From IMG/VR virus record IMGVR_UViG_3300020172_001034, positions 1 through 21,478 of that record: 21,478 nucleotides of DNA; one strand, given 5' to 3'. The position numbers were made by a program, and so were the translations under genes. Source of the stretch: a virus. The notes below the pieces were generated by a model. The model was not told the origin of the DNA, searched no databases, and was given only the letters and a program-made list of their open reading frames with translations. This document shows positions 4,015 through 11,024 of this stretch, piece after piece (the stretch's first letter is position 1; every line of letters starts with the position of its first letter).

Positions 4015-4206
4015 ATGACACCGAAAGAGAAGGCAGAAGAATTAATATATAGATTTACATTCTATTGTAGAGAATGCGATTATGAAGATAATGCTAAACA
4101 ATACGCTTTAATAGCAGTTGATGAGATACTATCAATTAGAAAGTTAAAAGATATTGAAAGTCAAAATTATTGGCAAGAAGTTAAACAAGAAATAGAAAAA
4201 CTTTAA
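4015..4206 (+). CDS. Small hypothetical phage protein
   Basis: I place the start at the ATG at 4015 (MTPKEKAEELIYRFTFYCRE), giving 63 aa. An upstream ATG at 3973 would overlap the previous gene by 37 bases. The protein is helical, with two Cys (CREC) and a conserved-looking start, MTPKEKAEEL, that I associate with small Bacteroidetes phage proteins of unknown function. The next gene starts 2 bases after the stop and also begins MTPK, so one may be an old duplication of the other's 5' end. Confidence 0.55.
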   Translation: MTPKEKAEELIYRFTFYCRECDYEDNAKQYALIAVDEILSIRKLKDIESQNYWQEVKQEIEKL

Positions 4207-4208
4207 AT

Positions 4209-4460
4209 ATGACACCGAAGAAAAAGAATATGAAAATGCACCTGTTTTATTGCCTATGCCAGTTACTACTTGAATGCTTAGACGAATTAAAAGTAACTAA
4301 CCCGCGAATGATTGAATTAAAGGCTAATTTAACGGAGTTTTGTGAATTGCTTAACAATGAATGCGCCGACACTTATACGGTTCAGAAAACGACCTATTTT
4401 CAACAGATAACACAAAAGATTAATACCATTTTAAGAAACGAATTTAATCCAGAATTGTAA
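4209..4460 (+). CDS. Small hypothetical phage protein
   Basis: This 83-aa protein starts MTPKKKNMKMHLFYCLCQLL and looks helical throughout, with several Cys residues and no known motif. The hydrophobic stretch after the basic start is too short and too broken by polar residues for a clear membrane segment. Its stop overlaps the next start by one base (TAATG at 4458-4462), so translation of the two is coupled. Confidence 0.5.
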   Translation: MTPKKKNMKMHLFYCLCQLLLECLDELKVTNPRMIELKANLTEFCELLNNECADTYTVQKTTYFQQITQKINTILRNEFNPEL

Positions 4461-4681
4461 TGAAAACAAGTAGAGGAATTGCAGATGAATTAGGTATTGA
4501 GAAATATGTTGTGGCTTATATCATAAAAAAAGAAAACATTAAACCGATACGAATAGAGGGAAATAGACGTTACTTTGATGAATCCAGTATTAAAACAATA
4601 AAACAATTATTACACTTAGAAGAAGAATCTGAATACGAAATCTTTGAATCAAAAATGAATTATGAAAGTACAATTAGTTAG
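4460..4681 (+). CDS. Small MerR-like helix-turn-helix protein
   Basis: The 73-aa protein begins MKTSRGIADELGIEKYVVAY and continues with a basic segment and GNRRYFDESSIKTIKQLL. This is the shape of the winged HTH of MerR and excisionase-like proteins: helix, turn, recognition helix, wing with RRYF, then a helix. No effector domain follows, so it is a minimal DNA binder and could be a regulator or directionality factor. It is coupled to the previous gene by TAATG, and its end overlaps thyX by 20 bases. Confidence 0.6.
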   Translation: MKTSRGIADELGIEKYVVAYIIKKENIKPIRIEGNRRYFDESSIKTIKQLLHLEEESEYEIFESKMNYESTIS

Positions 4682-5354
4682 CAAAACAACAGGAGTAGGA
4701 AAATATAAAGACCTTACAAGTGAAGAAATCATTTCCGCAATCGCAAGGCACGGGATAATAAAAGAGGATAATGGTAAGCTAGTAAAGTACTTAATGAACG
4801 CAAAACACTGGTCGCCTTTGGATATGATAGATTTTACTTTTGAAATCGAAACAAGCAGGTCAATAGGTCGCCAAATTTTAAGACACCAATCTTTAAAGTT
4901 CCAAGAGCATAGCACACGTTACTCAGATAGGGTGCTTTTTGAAAACGTAGAAATCAGAAAAGAACATCCGACTAATCGCCAAAGTAGTACGGAGGTTTTT
5001 AATCCTATTTGGACAGAAACAATTTTTGGAGGTCGCCACGATGGAGAAGATTACGAAATGGATGCAGAAAAGGCAATTAAACAGCATTTAATAAAATCTG
5101 AAATCCTTTACAAAAAATTAATTAATGCAGGAGTAGCGAAAGAATGCGCACGTAAAATACTACCCGAAACACTAACTACCACAATGAGTGCAAAAGGTTC
5201 TTTAAGGAGCTGGCTATCGTTTTTAAATGTACGACTTGACCATCACGCAGAGCTTGAAATACAACTAATTGCAAAGGAAATAGGGGAACTTTTAGCACAA
5301 GAAATGCCGAATATATTTTATAGTATTGATTGGAAAAAAGGGATGTTTTTATAA
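4662..5354 (+). CDS. thyX: Flavin-dependent thymidylate synthase ThyX
   Basis: ThyX makes dTMP from dUMP using FAD, NADPH and methylene-tetrahydrofolate. The 230-aa length fits the family. Visible elements are KHWSPLDMIDFTFEIETSRS near residues 48-67, the ThyX signature as RHQSLKFQEHSTRYS at 74-88 (classical form RHRxxSxNExSxRY), and ILPETLTTTMSAKGSLRSWL near 170-185 with the following helix. The third signature residue is Q instead of R, and FQE replaces NE. Phages use ThyX to supply thymidine for replication; MazG-like genes downstream fit the same nucleotide-pool role. The start overlaps the preceding gene by 20 bases; a later in-frame ATG would remove the conserved N-terminus. Confidence 0.92.
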   Translation: MKVQLVSKTTGVGKYKDLTSEEIISAIARHGIIKEDNGKLVKYLMNAKHWSPLDMIDFTFEIETSRSIGRQILRHQSLKFQEHSTRYSDRVLFENVEIRKEHPTNRQSSTEVFNPIWTETIFGGRHDGEDYEMDAEKAIKQHLIKSEILYKKLINAGVAKECARKILPETLTTTMSAKGSLRSWLSFLNVRLDHHAELEIQLIAKEIGELLAQEMPNIFYSIDWKKGMFL

Positions 5355-5403: not shown

Positions 5404-5411
5404 TATATTTG
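5404..5411 (+). promoter_or_regulatory. Promoter -7 element for the GNAT-methyltransferase pair
   Basis: TATATTTG (5404-5411) followed by C matches the Bacteroidetes -7 consensus and lies 25 bases before the ATG at 5437. No good TTG is present at the usual distance, so strength is uncertain. It implies the modification pair can be expressed separately from thyX. Confidence 0.55.
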
Positions 5412-5436
5412 CATACACATTTAAAACAAATTAAAA

Positions 5437-6828
5437 ATGAGAACACAAAAAAGTTTATTTGAGGAAAAAATTGAGCTTATTCAATTGAATAGCGTTATTG
5501 GAAGTGGTTATGAATCACAAGTAGCAGAATTGGCATTAATAGATAAAATAGCTTATAGGGCAGCAAGAGCTAATATGCAAAAACATTCTGCTATTATTTT
5601 AAAAATTAATGATGAGTTTAGCGGTTTTTTTACTTATGAAGTAAATCATATAGTAGGCGAGTTTTGTTTATTACAGTCTGCAATGTATCCTGGTAAAGAA
5701 TCTAAAGAAATATATTCTATGATGGTTCAAAAAATAATTGATCAAAATACATTTGGATATCATATGGTTATGACTGTTTCAAATAAACATAAATTAGAGA
5801 ATCCAAAAGTTTTTTTAGCATTAGGATTTAAAGTTAATTTAGCAAAAAATGATTTTACTTATATTTATTACGGTAAAGAAGAACAAGTAAGAGTGAAAAG
5901 ACTTTGTCATATGGCTATGACTAATTTATGGAACTCTACAAGTGGGGAATGGTTAAAAGTAAAAAGAGCGTGGAATGAAAAATTAGAGGAAGCTGGAAAA
6001 AAATATAATATTCCTAATCCTAAATTTGCAAGTCGTGAAGGGTGTTGGCAGGGTAAATCAGGTATGTCAAATGTTGTGTTATCAAAACAAACTGTTAAAG
6101 ATGGAGAAATTTTAACAGATAAAACAAAAGATTTGAATGGTAATGCATCTGTTTTAGATCCTACAGCTTGTGAAATTATAGCACGTATGTTTATGCCTAC
6201 TAACGGATGTAGAATTTATAATCCTTTTGGCGGAGGAGTTCAAATGGGGTTTGTTGCTGGTGGCTGTGGATACGAATATTTGTCTTCTGAAATTAGACAA
6301 AATCAATGTGATGCTAATAATGCACTTTGTCAAGATTTTGTTAATGTAAAATGGTTAAAATCAGATACGTCAAAATTTACACCAAAGCAAAACTATGATT
6401 TAGTTTTTAGTTGTCCTCCTTATTATAAAGTTGAAACTTATTTAGACTATGATGGAAAAAGTCCAGAAGGCGAACTTAATTCGCTATCAACTTATGAACA
6501 ATTTAGAGATATGCTTTTTGAAGGTTATAAAAATGCTATTTCTGTAATGAATGATAATACTTTCTTTGTTGTTATGACTGGAGATAGCAGAAATAAAGAT
6601 GGAGGTTATTATTGTTCAGATGCAGAACACGAACTATTTTTTAAAGAACAAGGATTACACGTTTATAATAAAATAATTTATTTAGAAAGTGAATTTACAA
6701 GACGTGCCACAGCAAAGAAAACATTAAATAGTAGAAAATATCCAAAATGTGAACAGCGTATTTATGTTTTTTACAAAGGTGATACTTCAAAAATAAAAGA
6801 CCTTTATCCAAATATAGGTAGATTGTAA
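5437..6828 (+). CDS. GNAT-like domain fused to a DNA amino-methyltransferase
   Basis: The 463-aa protein has two parts. Residues 1-150 look like a GNAT acyltransferase: a strand (SAIILKINDEFSGFFTYEV), then GEFCLLQSAMYP, a helix, and the closing NPKVFLALGFK that is typical of GNAT C-termini. Residues 190-450 are a SAM-dependent DNA methyltransferase of the N6-adenine/N4-cytosine class. Motif X/I is at 241-287 (DPTACEIIAR, YNPFGGGVQMGF) and motif IV at 320-330 (YDLVFSCPPYY), in the order I then IV. The usual S/N/D before PPY is C327, which is unusual. Mom of phage Mu is a GNAT-like enzyme that hypermodifies adenine, so a GNAT-methyltransferase fusion suggests a modified base that protects the phage genome; that is inference. 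The stop overlaps the next start (TAATG), so the two genes are coupled. Confidence 0.75.
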   Translation: MRTQKSLFEEKIELIQLNSVIGSGYESQVAELALIDKIAYRAARANMQKHSAIILKINDEFSGFFTYEVNHIVGEFCLLQSAMYPGKESKEIYSMMVQKIIDQNTFGYHMVMTVSNKHKLENPKVFLALGFKVNLAKNDFTYIYYGKEEQVRVKRLCHMAMTNLWNSTSGEWLKVKRAWNEKLEEAGKKYNIPNPKFASREGCWQGKSGMSNVVLSKQTVKDGEILTDKTKDLNGNASVLDPTACEIIARMFMPTNGCRIYNPFGGGVQMGFVAGGCGYEYLSSEIRQNQCDANNALCQDFVNVKWLKSDTSKFTPKQNYDLVFSCPPYYKVETYLDYDGKSPEGELNSLSTYEQFRDMLFEGYKNAISVMNDNTFFVVMTGDSRNKDGGYYCSDAEHELFFKEQGLHVYNKIIYLESEFTRRATAKKTLNSRKYPKCEQRIYVFYKGDTSKIKDLYPNIGRL

Positions 6829-7622
6829 TGAGAACTTATAAAAGTATAATATCCCTTTCTAAGAACGAAAGGGGTATTTGGGATTTAGATACAATTAAAG
6901 GATGTAAAAGCGGTATGTTAGAAAATCCAAAAGGCTGTTATAATGATTGTTATGCTTTTAAAACTGCAAATAGATACGGTATTGATTTTAGCAAATCTAT
7001 TGAAAGAAATTTTGAAAATGAAGCGCATAAACAACAAATAATAAGACAAATTGAAAAAATAGATATGTCATTTATTAGAATTGGATGTGCTGGCGACCCC
7101 TCAGAAAATTGGGAACATACTATTAAAATAATAAAAGAAATAAGAGATAGTAGTCAATTATCATTTTTTGACATTTCTTATAAAAAACAAATAGTTATAA
7201 TTACAAGGCATTGGAATGTATTAACAGATAAACAATTAAACGAAATTAAAAAATACAACATTTGTATTAATACTTCAGTTTCTGCTTTGGATAATGATTT
7301 GTTAATTAATACCGATTTAACTCAATACGAAAGATTAAAACCTTTTTGTAAATCAGTTTTAAGAATTGTAAGTTGTGATTTTAATGAAGAAAATGTAATA
7401 GGTAAAGAGAAAGCAGAAATACAAAGAAAATTATTTAAAAATCTAAATGTAATTGATACAGTATTTAGACCATCAAAAAATAATGAATTTGTAAAACAAA
7501 ATATAATAAATGTAAAAAAAATGGCTTTTATGAAATCAAAACAATTAATTAGTAAATTTAATAAAAAAGCATTTACAGGTAAGTGTGAAAATTGTTTAGA
7601 AATGTGTGGAATTAATTTATAA
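6828..7622 (+). CDS. Cys-rich radical-SAM-like iron-sulfur protein
   Basis: This 264-aa protein has an N-terminal cluster GCKSGMLENPKGCYNDCYAF, that is C-x10-C-x3-C followed by YA, close to the Cys arrangement of the DUF5131/Gp37-type radical-SAM relatives. IRIGCAGDPSENWEHTIKII resembles the second barrel strand with its GDPS turn, and QIVIITRHWN and NICINTSVSALD look like further TIM-barrel strands. A second Cys group, CENCLEMC, closes the protein and could hold an auxiliary cluster. The classical CxxxCxxC is not exact, so the family call is moderate. It is coupled by TAATG to the GNAT-methyltransferase and probably acts on the same substrate, either the DNA base or its added group. Confidence 0.6.
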   Translation: MRTYKSIISLSKNERGIWDLDTIKGCKSGMLENPKGCYNDCYAFKTANRYGIDFSKSIERNFENEAHKQQIIRQIEKIDMSFIRIGCAGDPSENWEHTIKIIKEIRDSSQLSFFDISYKKQIVIITRHWNVLTDKQLNEIKKYNICINTSVSALDNDLLINTDLTQYERLKPFCKSVLRIVSCDFNEENVIGKEKAEIQRKLFKNLNVIDTVFRPSKNNEFVKQNIINVKKMAFMKSKQLISKFNKKAFTGKCENCLEMCGINL

Positions 7623-7625
7623 ACT

Positions 7626-7925
7626 ATGACAAAATCCGAAGAAATACAACTACTATTAAAACTACCTAACTTTTATCTATGGAATAAAAGGCGTAGTAAA
7701 TGGACTGCTCAAGATATTGAGAATCTTAAAAACGGAACTGATGTAAAAAGAGATAACGCTAGCGGGGTTAAATGCCCTGTTATCGTTATCACAGAAACAG
7801 AAAAAAAACAATATAAATCTATTGCCGAAGCTTCAAGAAATTGCGGAGTTCCTGCATCAAAGATTTATAATATACTCTACGGTAATAGAGTACAACTAGA
7901 AACAATTAAATTTATATTATTATGA
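7626..7925 (+). CDS. NUMOD1-like DNA-binding protein without nuclease domain
   Basis: In this 99-aa protein, residues 51-98 follow the NUMOD1 pattern: a strand pair, then YKSIAEASRNCGVPASKIYN ending ILYGNR. This is the short HTH found in homing endonucleases (AARxxGxxxSxIxxxLxGxR). The usual HNH or GIY-YIG nuclease is absent, so it is either a free DNA-binding protein or the remnant of a homing endonuclease. The N-terminal half is unknown (LPNFYLWNKRRSKWTAQDIE). It starts 3 bases after the preceding gene and its stop overlaps the next ATG (ATGA). Confidence 0.6.
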   Translation: MTKSEEIQLLLKLPNFYLWNKRRSKWTAQDIENLKNGTDVKRDNASGVKCPVIVITETEKKQYKSIAEASRNCGVPASKIYNILYGNRVQLETIKFILL

Positions 7926-8113
7926 AAACCGATCCAATAGTAAAACAAGTAACAGATAAGTTCTTACAACGTTCAGAAGTAGGGATTAAAAAGTACGGAA
8001 CTACTTTACACGAAAATAATACAGACGATTTTTTTAACCATCTACAAGAGGAGTTAATGGATGCTATTTTATACTTACAAAAATTAAAAAATGAAACAAC
8101 AACAAACGACTGA
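7922..8113 (+). CDS. Small phage protein resembling nucleotide-hydrolase accessory domains
   Basis: The 63-aa protein MKTDPIVKQVTDKFLQRSEV contains GIKKYGTTLHENNTDDFFNH and LQEELMDAILYLQKL. The pattern R-x-x-x-G-x-x-KYG-x-x-L followed by hLxEExxDAxxYL is known in phage proteins related to MazG/DUF5664-like all-alpha NTP hydrolases. The second helix carries EE and D, which could bind Mg2+. It is very short, so it may be an accessory or half-domain. Coupled by ATGA with the previous gene and overlapping the next small frame by 23 bases, it lies close to the MazG-like gene at 8289. Confidence 0.55.
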   Translation: MKTDPIVKQVTDKFLQRSEVGIKKYGTTLHENNTDDFFNHLQEELMDAILYLQKLKNETTTND

Positions 8114-9362: not shown

Positions 9363-11024
9363 ATGAGTTTAAATATACAACAACAAGAACTAAAAGATAA
9401 ATTAGTCGAGTTCTTAAAATCAAATGAAAAAGGGTTCTTTGGAATTTATGGTGCTGGAGGTTGTGGGAAAACATACACTTTATGTCAATCTATTCATAAT
9501 TATAAAGGTTCTATTTTATTTTTAGGTGCTACAAATAAAGTAACAGGAGTTTTAAAAGATGGATTAAATAATGCTGGTTATCTTAACCCTACTATTAAAA
9601 CTATTGATTCATTTTTTAAATTTAAAATGAAAAAAGATTTTGAGGATAAAACTACAATATCTTATAGAGAGCCAAAAGATAATGAAATACCTGATTTAAT
9701 TGTAATTGATGAAATATCTTTAATCTCTAAAACTAAGTTTGAAATAATAAACAAAATTAAACATAAGTGTAAATTTATTTTAATTGGGGATTACTTGCAA
9801 TTACCGCCAATAGAAACAAGTAAAGAAGATTCATTTAGAAATGATGAAGGGTTTTTAGTTTCTAAGATTTTTTTAAGCATACCAAAAGAAAAAACATACA
9901 CTTTGACTATTCAACAACGTCAAAAAGATGGAACTGATTTAAGTGCTTTAATATCTGGGTTTCGTTTAAATATGGATAAGTATATGAAGCCTGTTAATAT
10001 AGCCTTAAAAAAACAAAATGATACTGATGTACTATTTTATAAAATTAATTCTTTAGAACTAAAGAAAACAATAAAAGAAAGTAACTCAGTAGCCGTTTGT
10101 TATAAAAACCAAAGCGTACTTTCTTTTAATTGGTTAATAGGTTCTACTAAGTCTATGGATAAAGGATATAAATTGAACTCTATAAATGTAAATGATACTT
10201 TAATGTTTGATTCTTTTTACAAAGCTTTAGACACTGCTAATCAAAAGGTTTCTTTTTATACTGCTGATATAGTTGATGTTATTTATATTAGTGATTATAT
10301 TACAGAAATATTTGAGATAGATAATTCAAGAATAAAACAAGAAAGTAAAGTAGTAAATTATAGAATAATTCAAGTTAAAGATAAAGATGGTAGGGTAAAA
10401 GAAATTAGGCATATTCAAGGAGGTCTTTCAGTTGGTAGTAAATTAAGTTCAGTTATATCTAACCAAAGAAAAACAAGCCTTAATAATATTCAAAAATTAT
10501 CTTTATTGAAAAATGATTTAGAAGCAAAAGCAGAAATAAAAAGATTAAAAGAATATTTAACTGATTTAAATACTCGTTATTCAAATTATAAAAATAGCTT
10601 TGCATCTCTAAAAAGAGCTTACGCAATTACGGCACACAAGGCGCAAGGTTCAACTTATGATAGTGTTATTATTCCCGTTTATGATTATTCATCTCTTAAT
10701 TATAAAGATTCTAATCAGTTACTTTATGTGGCTATGAGTAGGGCAAAGAATAAGATTATTTTTGTAGATAAAGAATCTAATTTTAAAGATAATTCAAATA
10801 GATATACATTTAGTGAATTTGAAAAGATGGCAATAGCTTCAAGTCAGGATTATAAATGTAAAGAATGTGAAAAAGATTTATTAGAAAGAGAATTTGATAT
10901 TGACCATAGAATACCAATTGCAAACGGAGGATTTAATTCTTTGTACAATTTACAAGCACTTTGTAAAAGTTGCCATAAAAGAAAAACAGCAAAAGAAACA
11001 TATTTTAAAAACTTAAAAAAATAA
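9363..11024 (+). CDS. SF1 (RecD/Dda-like) helicase fused to a C-terminal HNH nuclease
   Basis: The 553-aa protein has Walker A GAGGCGKT at 30-37, Walker B DLIVIDEISLI near 111-121, motif III ILIGDYLQLPPI at 139-150 and TIQQRQ after it. The late UvrD-like motifs are AITAHKAQGSTYDS at 421-434 and LLYVAMSRAKNKI near 453-465. This is the Dda/RecD2 type of 5'-3' helicase used in phage replication. A short linker leads to a full HNH motif at 497-545: CKEC (C499, C502), DIDHRIP (D514, H515), N525/N529 and CKSCH (C534, C537, H538), so the zinc-binding and catalytic residues are all present. A helicase joined to an HNH nuclease is unusual; origin nicking, recombination processing or attack on host DNA are possible roles. 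The stop overlaps the primase start by one base (AATAATG). Confidence 0.85.
   Translation: MSLNIQQQELKDKLVEFLKSNEKGFFGIYGAGGCGKTYTLCQSIHNYKGSILFLGATNKVTGVLKDGLNNAGYLNPTIKTIDSFFKFKMKKDFEDKTTISYREPKDNEIPDLIVIDEISLISKTKFEIINKIKHKCKFILIGDYLQLPPIETSKEDSFRNDEGFLVSKIFLSIPKEKTYTLTIQQRQKDGTDLSALISGFRLNMDKYMKPVNIALKKQNDTDVLFYKINSLELKKTIKESNSVAVCYKNQSVLSFNWLIGSTKSMDKGYKLNSINVNDTLMFDSFYKALDTANQKVSFYTADIVDVIYISDYITEIFEIDNSRIKQESKVVNYRIIQVKDKDGRVKEIRHIQGGLSVGSKLSSVISNQRKTSLNNIQKLSLLKNDLEAKAEIKRLKEYLTDLNTRYSNYKNSFASLKRAYAITAHKAQGSTYDSVIIPVYDYSSLNYKDSNQLLYVAMSRAKNKIIFVDKESNFKDNSNRYTFSEFEKMAIASSQDYKCKECEKDLLEREFDIDHRIPIANGGFNSLYNLQALCKSCHKRKTAKETYFKNLKK

Follow-up and report, generated by a model that had tools for sequence, protein, structure and literature searches.

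Hypermodification of thymidine in phages M6 and ViI, with its radical S-adenosylmethionine (SAM), pyridoxal phosphate (PLP) and acetyltransferase steps, provides a precedent for the type of locus described here, and Mom of phage Mu, which enlarges a DNA base, is a single domain that is not known to have a transferase or a radical-SAM partner. Mom adopts a GNAT fold, according to PMC7824862. PMC12783734 describes CmoX, CmoA and CmoY of phage S-B43 as a carboxymethylcytosine pathway, in which a phage SAM transferase with ParB association uses an altered SAM donor supplied by a phage-encoded partner before the product is tailored. Here we analyzed a two-gene unit in an IMG/VR virus record (IMGVR_UViG_3300020172_001034), a linear sequence that is 21,478 bases long and is referred to as the window. 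Its first gene encodes P1 (463 residues, positions 5437..6828, plus strand), a GNAT-fold domain fused to a SAM-dependent transferase, while the second encodes P2 (264 residues, 6828..7622, plus strand), which models as a radical-SAM-fold protein. We consider it reasonably probable that P1 and P2 together constitute a phage DNA base hypermodification module.

The locus differs from each of the closest known systems. The GNAT domain of P1 has no sequence or profile similarity to Mom (PF25680), and the Cmo pathway is distinguished by C5-cytosine chemistry, an SPPC motif and an AMP-forming ligase; the words "GNAT" and "radical" do not occur in the main text of PMC12783734. The ParB-methyltransferases of phrog_498 (Listeria phage B054 gp77 and Enterococcus phage phiFL3A gp36) share the CPPY domain of P1 (31-33% identity by tblastn), but carry a ParB-type N-terminus where P1 has the GNAT domain, and their motif I mostly reads DPFAGGSVRG, with an Arg, versus NPFGGGVQ[MF]G in P1. 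Pairs of a CPPY transferase and an S-adenosylmethionine (AdoMet) decarboxylase (P2559S gp66-gp67 and ZRG1) likewise couple a member of the same transferase family to a tailoring enzyme, which in their case is a pyruvoyl AdoMet decarboxylase. Spore photoproduct lyase (4fhf), representing SplB-like radical-SAM enzymes, is the closest fold to P2 among the matches listed (VIA-align Z 11.8, root-mean-square deviation (rmsd) 4.0 over 217 residues), but shares only 10-11% identity with it in the structural alignment, and P2 departs from it in Cys spacing and in its coupling to a transferase. The methyltransferase-GNAT didomain of AprA (PDB 6d6y; Foldseek rank 6, E 2.8e-07) also combines both domains in one chain, but is part of a polyketide synthase, has the reverse domain order according to its title and superposes poorly as a whole chain, with an rmsd of 19.0. 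No description of a SAM transferase fused to a GNAT domain and paired with a radical-SAM protein was found in the literature covered, which lay mostly outside subscription journals, so that absence is not proven. The novelty is the enzyme combination, within the known theme of phage DNA hypermodification.

Conservation of the P1-P2 pair

Both genes were confirmed as open reading frames (ORFs), and the translational coupling proposed in an initial annotation of the sequence was borne out: the stop codon of P1 and the start codon of P2 share the A of a TAATG sequence (6826..6830, plus strand), corresponding to a one-base overlap. Related loci were surveyed with P1, P2, the alternative radical-SAM partner described below and named phage relatives as queries, which gave 199 sequences, 125 of them non-redundant. 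GNAT domain and transferase occurred together in 92 non-redundant loci. P2 was present in 85 of these, located at most 30 bases downstream in 76, upstream in eight and further off in one, a recurrence that is far beyond chance and bears out the conserved pairing that the initial annotation had anticipated. Five loci (L064, L083, L085, L111 and L177) encoded a different protein, at a distance of at most 30 bases, in the place of P2. In the remaining two (L084 and L110) neither partner was in view and the contig ended on the missing side; the assembly containing L110 holds two pieces of P2 at contig starts. A partner of the radical-SAM family thus accompanied the GNAT-transferase in 90 of 92 loci, and the remaining two are truncated where their contigs end.

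Six of the eight loci in which P2 comes first (L091, L093, L112, L113, L114 and L115) carried the radical-SAM, GNAT and transferase domains in one open frame of 739-839 codons. On a tree of the P1 proteins from 91 of the 92 loci, the partner state (P2 or alternative) changed at least five times and the arrangement of the genes eight times. The near-complete linkage, together with these repeated swaps and fused chains, makes a radical-SAM partner effectively obligatory for the GNAT-transferase. Conversely, a transferase adjoined P2 in all 87 P2 loci, including two (L140 and L141) that had no GNAT match and in which P2 is located near the contig start. A constant third gene at a fixed place, such as a restriction endonuclease cognate to the methyltransferase, was not apparent in the 92 loci on visual inspection of the neighbour clusters, for which no nuclease scan was made. 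Host-side matches came from metagenome-assembled contigs classified as Massilibacteroides, Desulfobacula, Desulfobacterales and Spirochaetes as well as from Smithella sp. SCADC and Riemerella columbipharyngis. In the contig of L087, where P2 precedes P1, an internal stop interrupts the P2 frame (7161-7955).

Domain organization of P1

The structure of P1 was predicted from a 34-sequence alignment (A1) with a mean predicted local distance difference test (pLDDT) score of 80.3, and both halves of the proposed GNAT-methyltransferase fusion were recovered by fold. Residues 10-149 (5464..5883, plus strand) superposed on acetyltransferases (VIA-align; 7rb3_A with Z 16.3 and rmsd 2.5 over 134 residues, 1xeb_E with Z 16.0 and rmsd 2.1 over 129 residues); the N-terminal 150 residues thus model as a GNAT fold and not as a target-recognition domain. 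Within this domain, the polar residues N70, H71, E75, C77, Q80, S81, N104, K117 and E121 were invariant in alignment A3, and the mean column identity was 73% for the GNAT domain (A3) as well as for whole P1 (A1). The link to Mom that the initial annotation had drawn was not supported: none of the 29 A3 members matched the Mom profile PF25680 at E <= 10, and hhalign showed no similarity either. One locus, L083, whose module has the alternative partner, does carry a genuine member of the Mom family on the same contig (8451-9191; PF25680, E 1.2e-46).

Residues 152-449 (5890..6783, plus strand) model as a Rossmann-fold SAM-dependent transferase, with archaeal Trm11 (5e71, aTrm11) as the best fold match (VIA-align Z 17.1, rmsd 4.0 over 202 residues). 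Sequence profiles recognized only the C-terminal half of P1 (approximately residues 201-460), matching phrog_498 (E 1.9e-37), which is annotated as DNA methyltransferase, and phrog_12517 (E 3.1e-38). This profile match and the CPPY motif make P1 a member of the phrog_498, or CPPY, phage transferases. Motif I (NPFGGGVQMGFV, residues 262-273, 6220..6255, plus strand) conformed to NPFGGGVQ[MF]G in 34 of 34 sequences, and CPPY was found in all 34 as part of motif IV (SCPPYY in P1, residues 325-330, 6409..6426, plus strand). Motif IV of amino N-methyltransferases reads [DNS]PP[YFW], a pattern that none of the 34 sequences contained. The Pfam profile N6_N4_Mtase (PF01555) remained below its cut-off (20.5 versus 26.7 bits, E 5.2e-4), while the PADLOC profile MTase_II matched with an E-value of 3.9e-9. 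The designation as a DNA amino-methyltransferase was accordingly narrowed: the SAM-transferase fold holds, but the label is too firm in view of the sub-threshold PF01555 score, the CPPY motif and the RNA methyltransferases that head the fold matches.

P2 and an alternative radical-SAM partner

P2, modeled from 42 sequences (mean pLDDT 92.3), showed the partial TIM-barrel fold of radical-SAM proteins: all 50 PDB matches listed by VIA-align were radical-SAM enzymes. Besides spore photoproduct lyase these included viperin-like enzymes (Z 10.9) and RlmN (Z 9.8), while plain Foldseek with the P2 model returned no match at E <= 0.001. Six cysteines of P2 were unchanged in all 42 sequences. They are arranged in a first group, C26-x10-C37-x3-C41 (6903..6950, plus strand), which from the fold is the presumed [4Fe-4S]/SAM site, and a second, C253-x2-C256-x3-C260 (7584..7607, plus strand), which may bind an auxiliary cluster. 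The predicted radical-SAM fold and the second Cys group both agree with the Cys-rich, radical-SAM-like protein envisaged in the initial annotation.

P2 was absent from 50,697 GenBank phage records, and a single one of its 42 members matched the DUF5131 profile (PF07505, E 0.001). When ten whole virus records were scanned with Radical_SAM (PF04055), only the record of L083, which encodes the alternative partner, was found, so this profile is blind to P2. All three alternative partners scanned with Pfam, out of five, matched PF04055 (cut-off 29.5 bits), with scores of 44.4 for L083 and 40.5 for L085, both above the cut-off, and 29.3, or 0.2 bits under it, for L064. A colinear hhalign match between P2 and the alternative family (E 0.0014, 176 columns) points to a possible distant relationship between the two inside this superfamily. 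In other phages (L184, L188, L179 and L180) the alternative family was accompanied by ParB, a queuine-transglycosylase-like protein (phrog_887) and the transporter Vut_1, a 7-deazaguanine DNA-modification type of setting. L180 also encodes another radical-SAM-like protein and the N-terminal domain of an S-AdoMet synthetase.

Tailoring partners in the wider CPPY transferase family

Distant relatives of the transferase in GenBank phages were often ParB-type fusions. Among 16 stretches read for neighbours of the transferase, an AdoMet decarboxylase directly followed it in Croceibacter phage P2559S (gp66-gp67, L097 5473-7114) and Pseudomonas phage ZRG1, and a PALP-type PLP enzyme in AlanGrant and Mae-JY30. 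In Pam4 the PLP domain resides inside the transferase, as the match pattern also indicates for two Erythrobacter phages; some of the 16 stretches had neither neighbour. PLP-linked transferase loci comprise L099 1406-2275, L098 5831-6541, L100 2012-4501, L105 and L279 2053-4491.

After a scan of IMG/VR for the transferase family, 95 non-redundant loci in which the transferase was readable were compared. An AdoMet decarboxylase lay on the same strand, no more than 500 bases away, in 58 of them (including L097, L104 3494-5339 and L198 988-2815). Presence of the decarboxylase was reflected in motif I, which in this branch of ParB-type CPPY transferases mostly reads D[CTP]FAGD[TS]VFG: position 6 was Asp in 58 of 58 decarboxylase loci versus five of the 37 others, while position 9 was Arg in none of the 58 versus 29 of the 37. 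A motif defined post hoc (D6-[VIA]8-[FML]9) matched the presence or absence of the decarboxylase in 95 of 95 loci. On a tree built without the motif columns, this link comprised four independent pairs, all of which agreed but which are too few to reach significance (p 0.125); since the motif is post hoc and only these four pairs are independent, Fisher values overstate the link. Loss of the Arg alone agreed with the decarboxylase in about one of the four pairs and showed no difference in the others. In the GNAT branch, the Arg of motif I is absent as well and Asn replaces the first Asp, which at the sequence level may point to an unusual donor in this branch as well. Among GNAT-type loci, L029 was the only one with an AdoMet decarboxylase or PLP gene, namely a decarboxylase; on this contig it adjoins a second CPPY transferase on the other strand (4065-5025, minus strand), in addition to the GNAT/radical-SAM module.

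SpeD of P2559S was shown to be a true AdoMet decarboxylase in PMC9992855, in whose main text the word "methyltransferase" does not appear. We infer that the decarboxylase branch moves the aminopropyl group of decarboxylated SAM and thus represents a candidate DNA aminopropyltransferase; a use of decarboxylated SAM on DNA was not reported in the literature covered, which was again mostly outside subscription journals and does not prove absence. The recruitment of an AdoMet decarboxylase or a PLP enzyme by the sister branches argues that the CPPY family adds more than a methyl group.

Proposed function and alternative explanations

With the folds, the invariant sites, the near-obligatory linkage, the replacement of P2 by another radical-SAM family and the three-domain fusions observed for P1 and P2, a multi-step pathway can be proposed. 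With SAM or a donor derived from it, the CPPY domain of P1 would alkylate an exocyclic base amino group, and the fused GNAT domain would act on the donor or the transferred group by acyl transfer or decarboxylation. The GNAT fold is known to perform both reactions (PMC8072286). P2, as a spore-photoproduct-lyase-like radical-SAM enzyme, would then carry out C-H chemistry on the adduct, and the resulting bulky base would protect the phage DNA from host nucleases. Hypermodification, which the initial annotation had preferred to simple methylation, is indeed favoured, since the radical-SAM partner is effectively obligatory, fused forms exist and sister branches have tailoring partners of their own. 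DNA is the likely target, judging from the ParB-type relatives, from the DNA-acting enzyme whose fold is nearest to P2 among the matches listed and from the genes beside the alternative family in other phages.

Several observations weigh against a DNA hypermodification module. The top fold matches of the transferase (Trm11, Trm14, TrmN and METTL5) are RNA enzymes, for which reason RNA is a possible target and, on fold grounds, the main alternative to DNA. CPPY is nearly family-wide and therefore does not by itself mark out the P1 branch. For the GNAT domain there was no Pfam family match, hhalign against 28 Mom proteins gave a Prob of 0.1 over 10 columns, and the coenzyme A pyrophosphate loop [QR]xxGx[GA] of GNAT proteins was found in none of the 29 A3 members; given these results the domain may be non-catalytic, at least in the usual manner. 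P2 does not have the classical CxxxCxxC spacing, although the radical-SAM superfamily includes other Cys spacings, and gave no usable sequence match in Pfam, PHROGs, NCBIfam, PADLOC or the PDB sequences. The linkage counts derive from collection scans of the best 80 of 94 and the best 80 of 194 relatives and hence lean to close relatives. Finally, in Riemerella columbipharyngis DSM 24015 (L116 5326-6966), a P1-type transferase with the motif NPFGGGVQMG carries a different N-terminal region of about 240 residues, which had no family match, instead of the GNAT domain. P2 was not found in this genome, so the transferase can exist without it.

This last locus would be readily accommodated if P1 were an ordinary N6-adenine or N4-cytosine DNA methyltransferase with the GNAT domain as a structural or DNA-recognition add-on and P2 serving a separate task, an explanation that is also in line with the weak N6_N4_Mtase score, the MTase_II match and the phrog_498 annotation. 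We nevertheless regard it as unlikely, given that 90 of 92 loci have a radical-SAM partner, which is fused in six and, in at least five swaps, was always exchanged for another radical-SAM-family protein, that the GNAT domain is conserved as strongly as whole P1, and that motif IV reads CPPY and not D/N/SPPY. The RNA-enzyme folds raise the question of whether the module instead modifies tRNA or rRNA, for example against tRNA-cleaving defences of the host, particularly as the pairing of a radical-SAM enzyme with a SAM transferase is a known theme in tRNA hypermodification. The ParB-type domains of family relatives, a DNA repair enzyme as the closest solved fold of P2 among the matches listed and the DNA-modification-type genes beside the alternative partner in other phages make this quite unlikely. 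That same resemblance of P2 to spore photoproduct lyase, along with weak scores of the L083 partner against TIGR04070 and the DNA repair photolyase phrog_9252, would be expected if P2 served to erase or repair what P1 introduces, be it marks or lesions, instead of building on it. Two translationally coupled proteins that in some loci are fused into one chain are easier to reconcile with a single pathway than with a writer and an eraser produced in equal amounts, and we judge such a role of P2 very improbable.

Hypermodification of phage DNA by P1 and P2 would, if correct, extend the counter-restriction chemistry of phages by a new combination of enzymes and probably by a new DNA base. It would also yield a testable claim on a large unannotated phage family, namely that transferases filed as methyltransferases transfer other groups. 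A more general and tentative idea, possible but doubtful, is that CPPY proteins form a family of DNA alkyltransferases in phages, with the coupled tailoring enzyme determining the donor. Decarboxylated SAM from AdoMet decarboxylase would lead to aminopropyl transfer in one branch. In the branch of the window, the GNAT domain or P2 would alter SAM or its transferred side chain, P1 would attach a non-methyl group and the radical-SAM partner would rebuild it; all three activities can share one chain, which would be a self-contained writer of a hypermodified base not yet described. For expression, the fused chains (739-839 residues) offer compact candidates, and a simple first test case is available in the sister branch, whose AdoMet decarboxylase is proven.

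Upstream region and neighbouring genes

The initial annotation had assigned the unit its own promoter, for which we found no support. A two-part Bacteroidota-type promoter pattern was absent at 5404-5412, and sigma-70-like sites were no more frequent than in shuffled sequence. The element TATATTTGC (5404..5412, plus strand), a possible but unproven promoter element, occurs four times in the window compared to 0.52 expected. The larger ORFs of the window share one strand, with a gene order, as read by eye, of replication followed by terminase and head genes. A PP-loop protein of the PAPS-reductase family (95-997; phrog_424 E 5.9e-48, PADLOC SspD E 4.1e-20) is possibly another nucleic-acid modification gene, and a 553-residue ORF (9363-11024) combines a Dda-like helicase (phrog_325) and a C-terminus that resembles HNH endonucleases.

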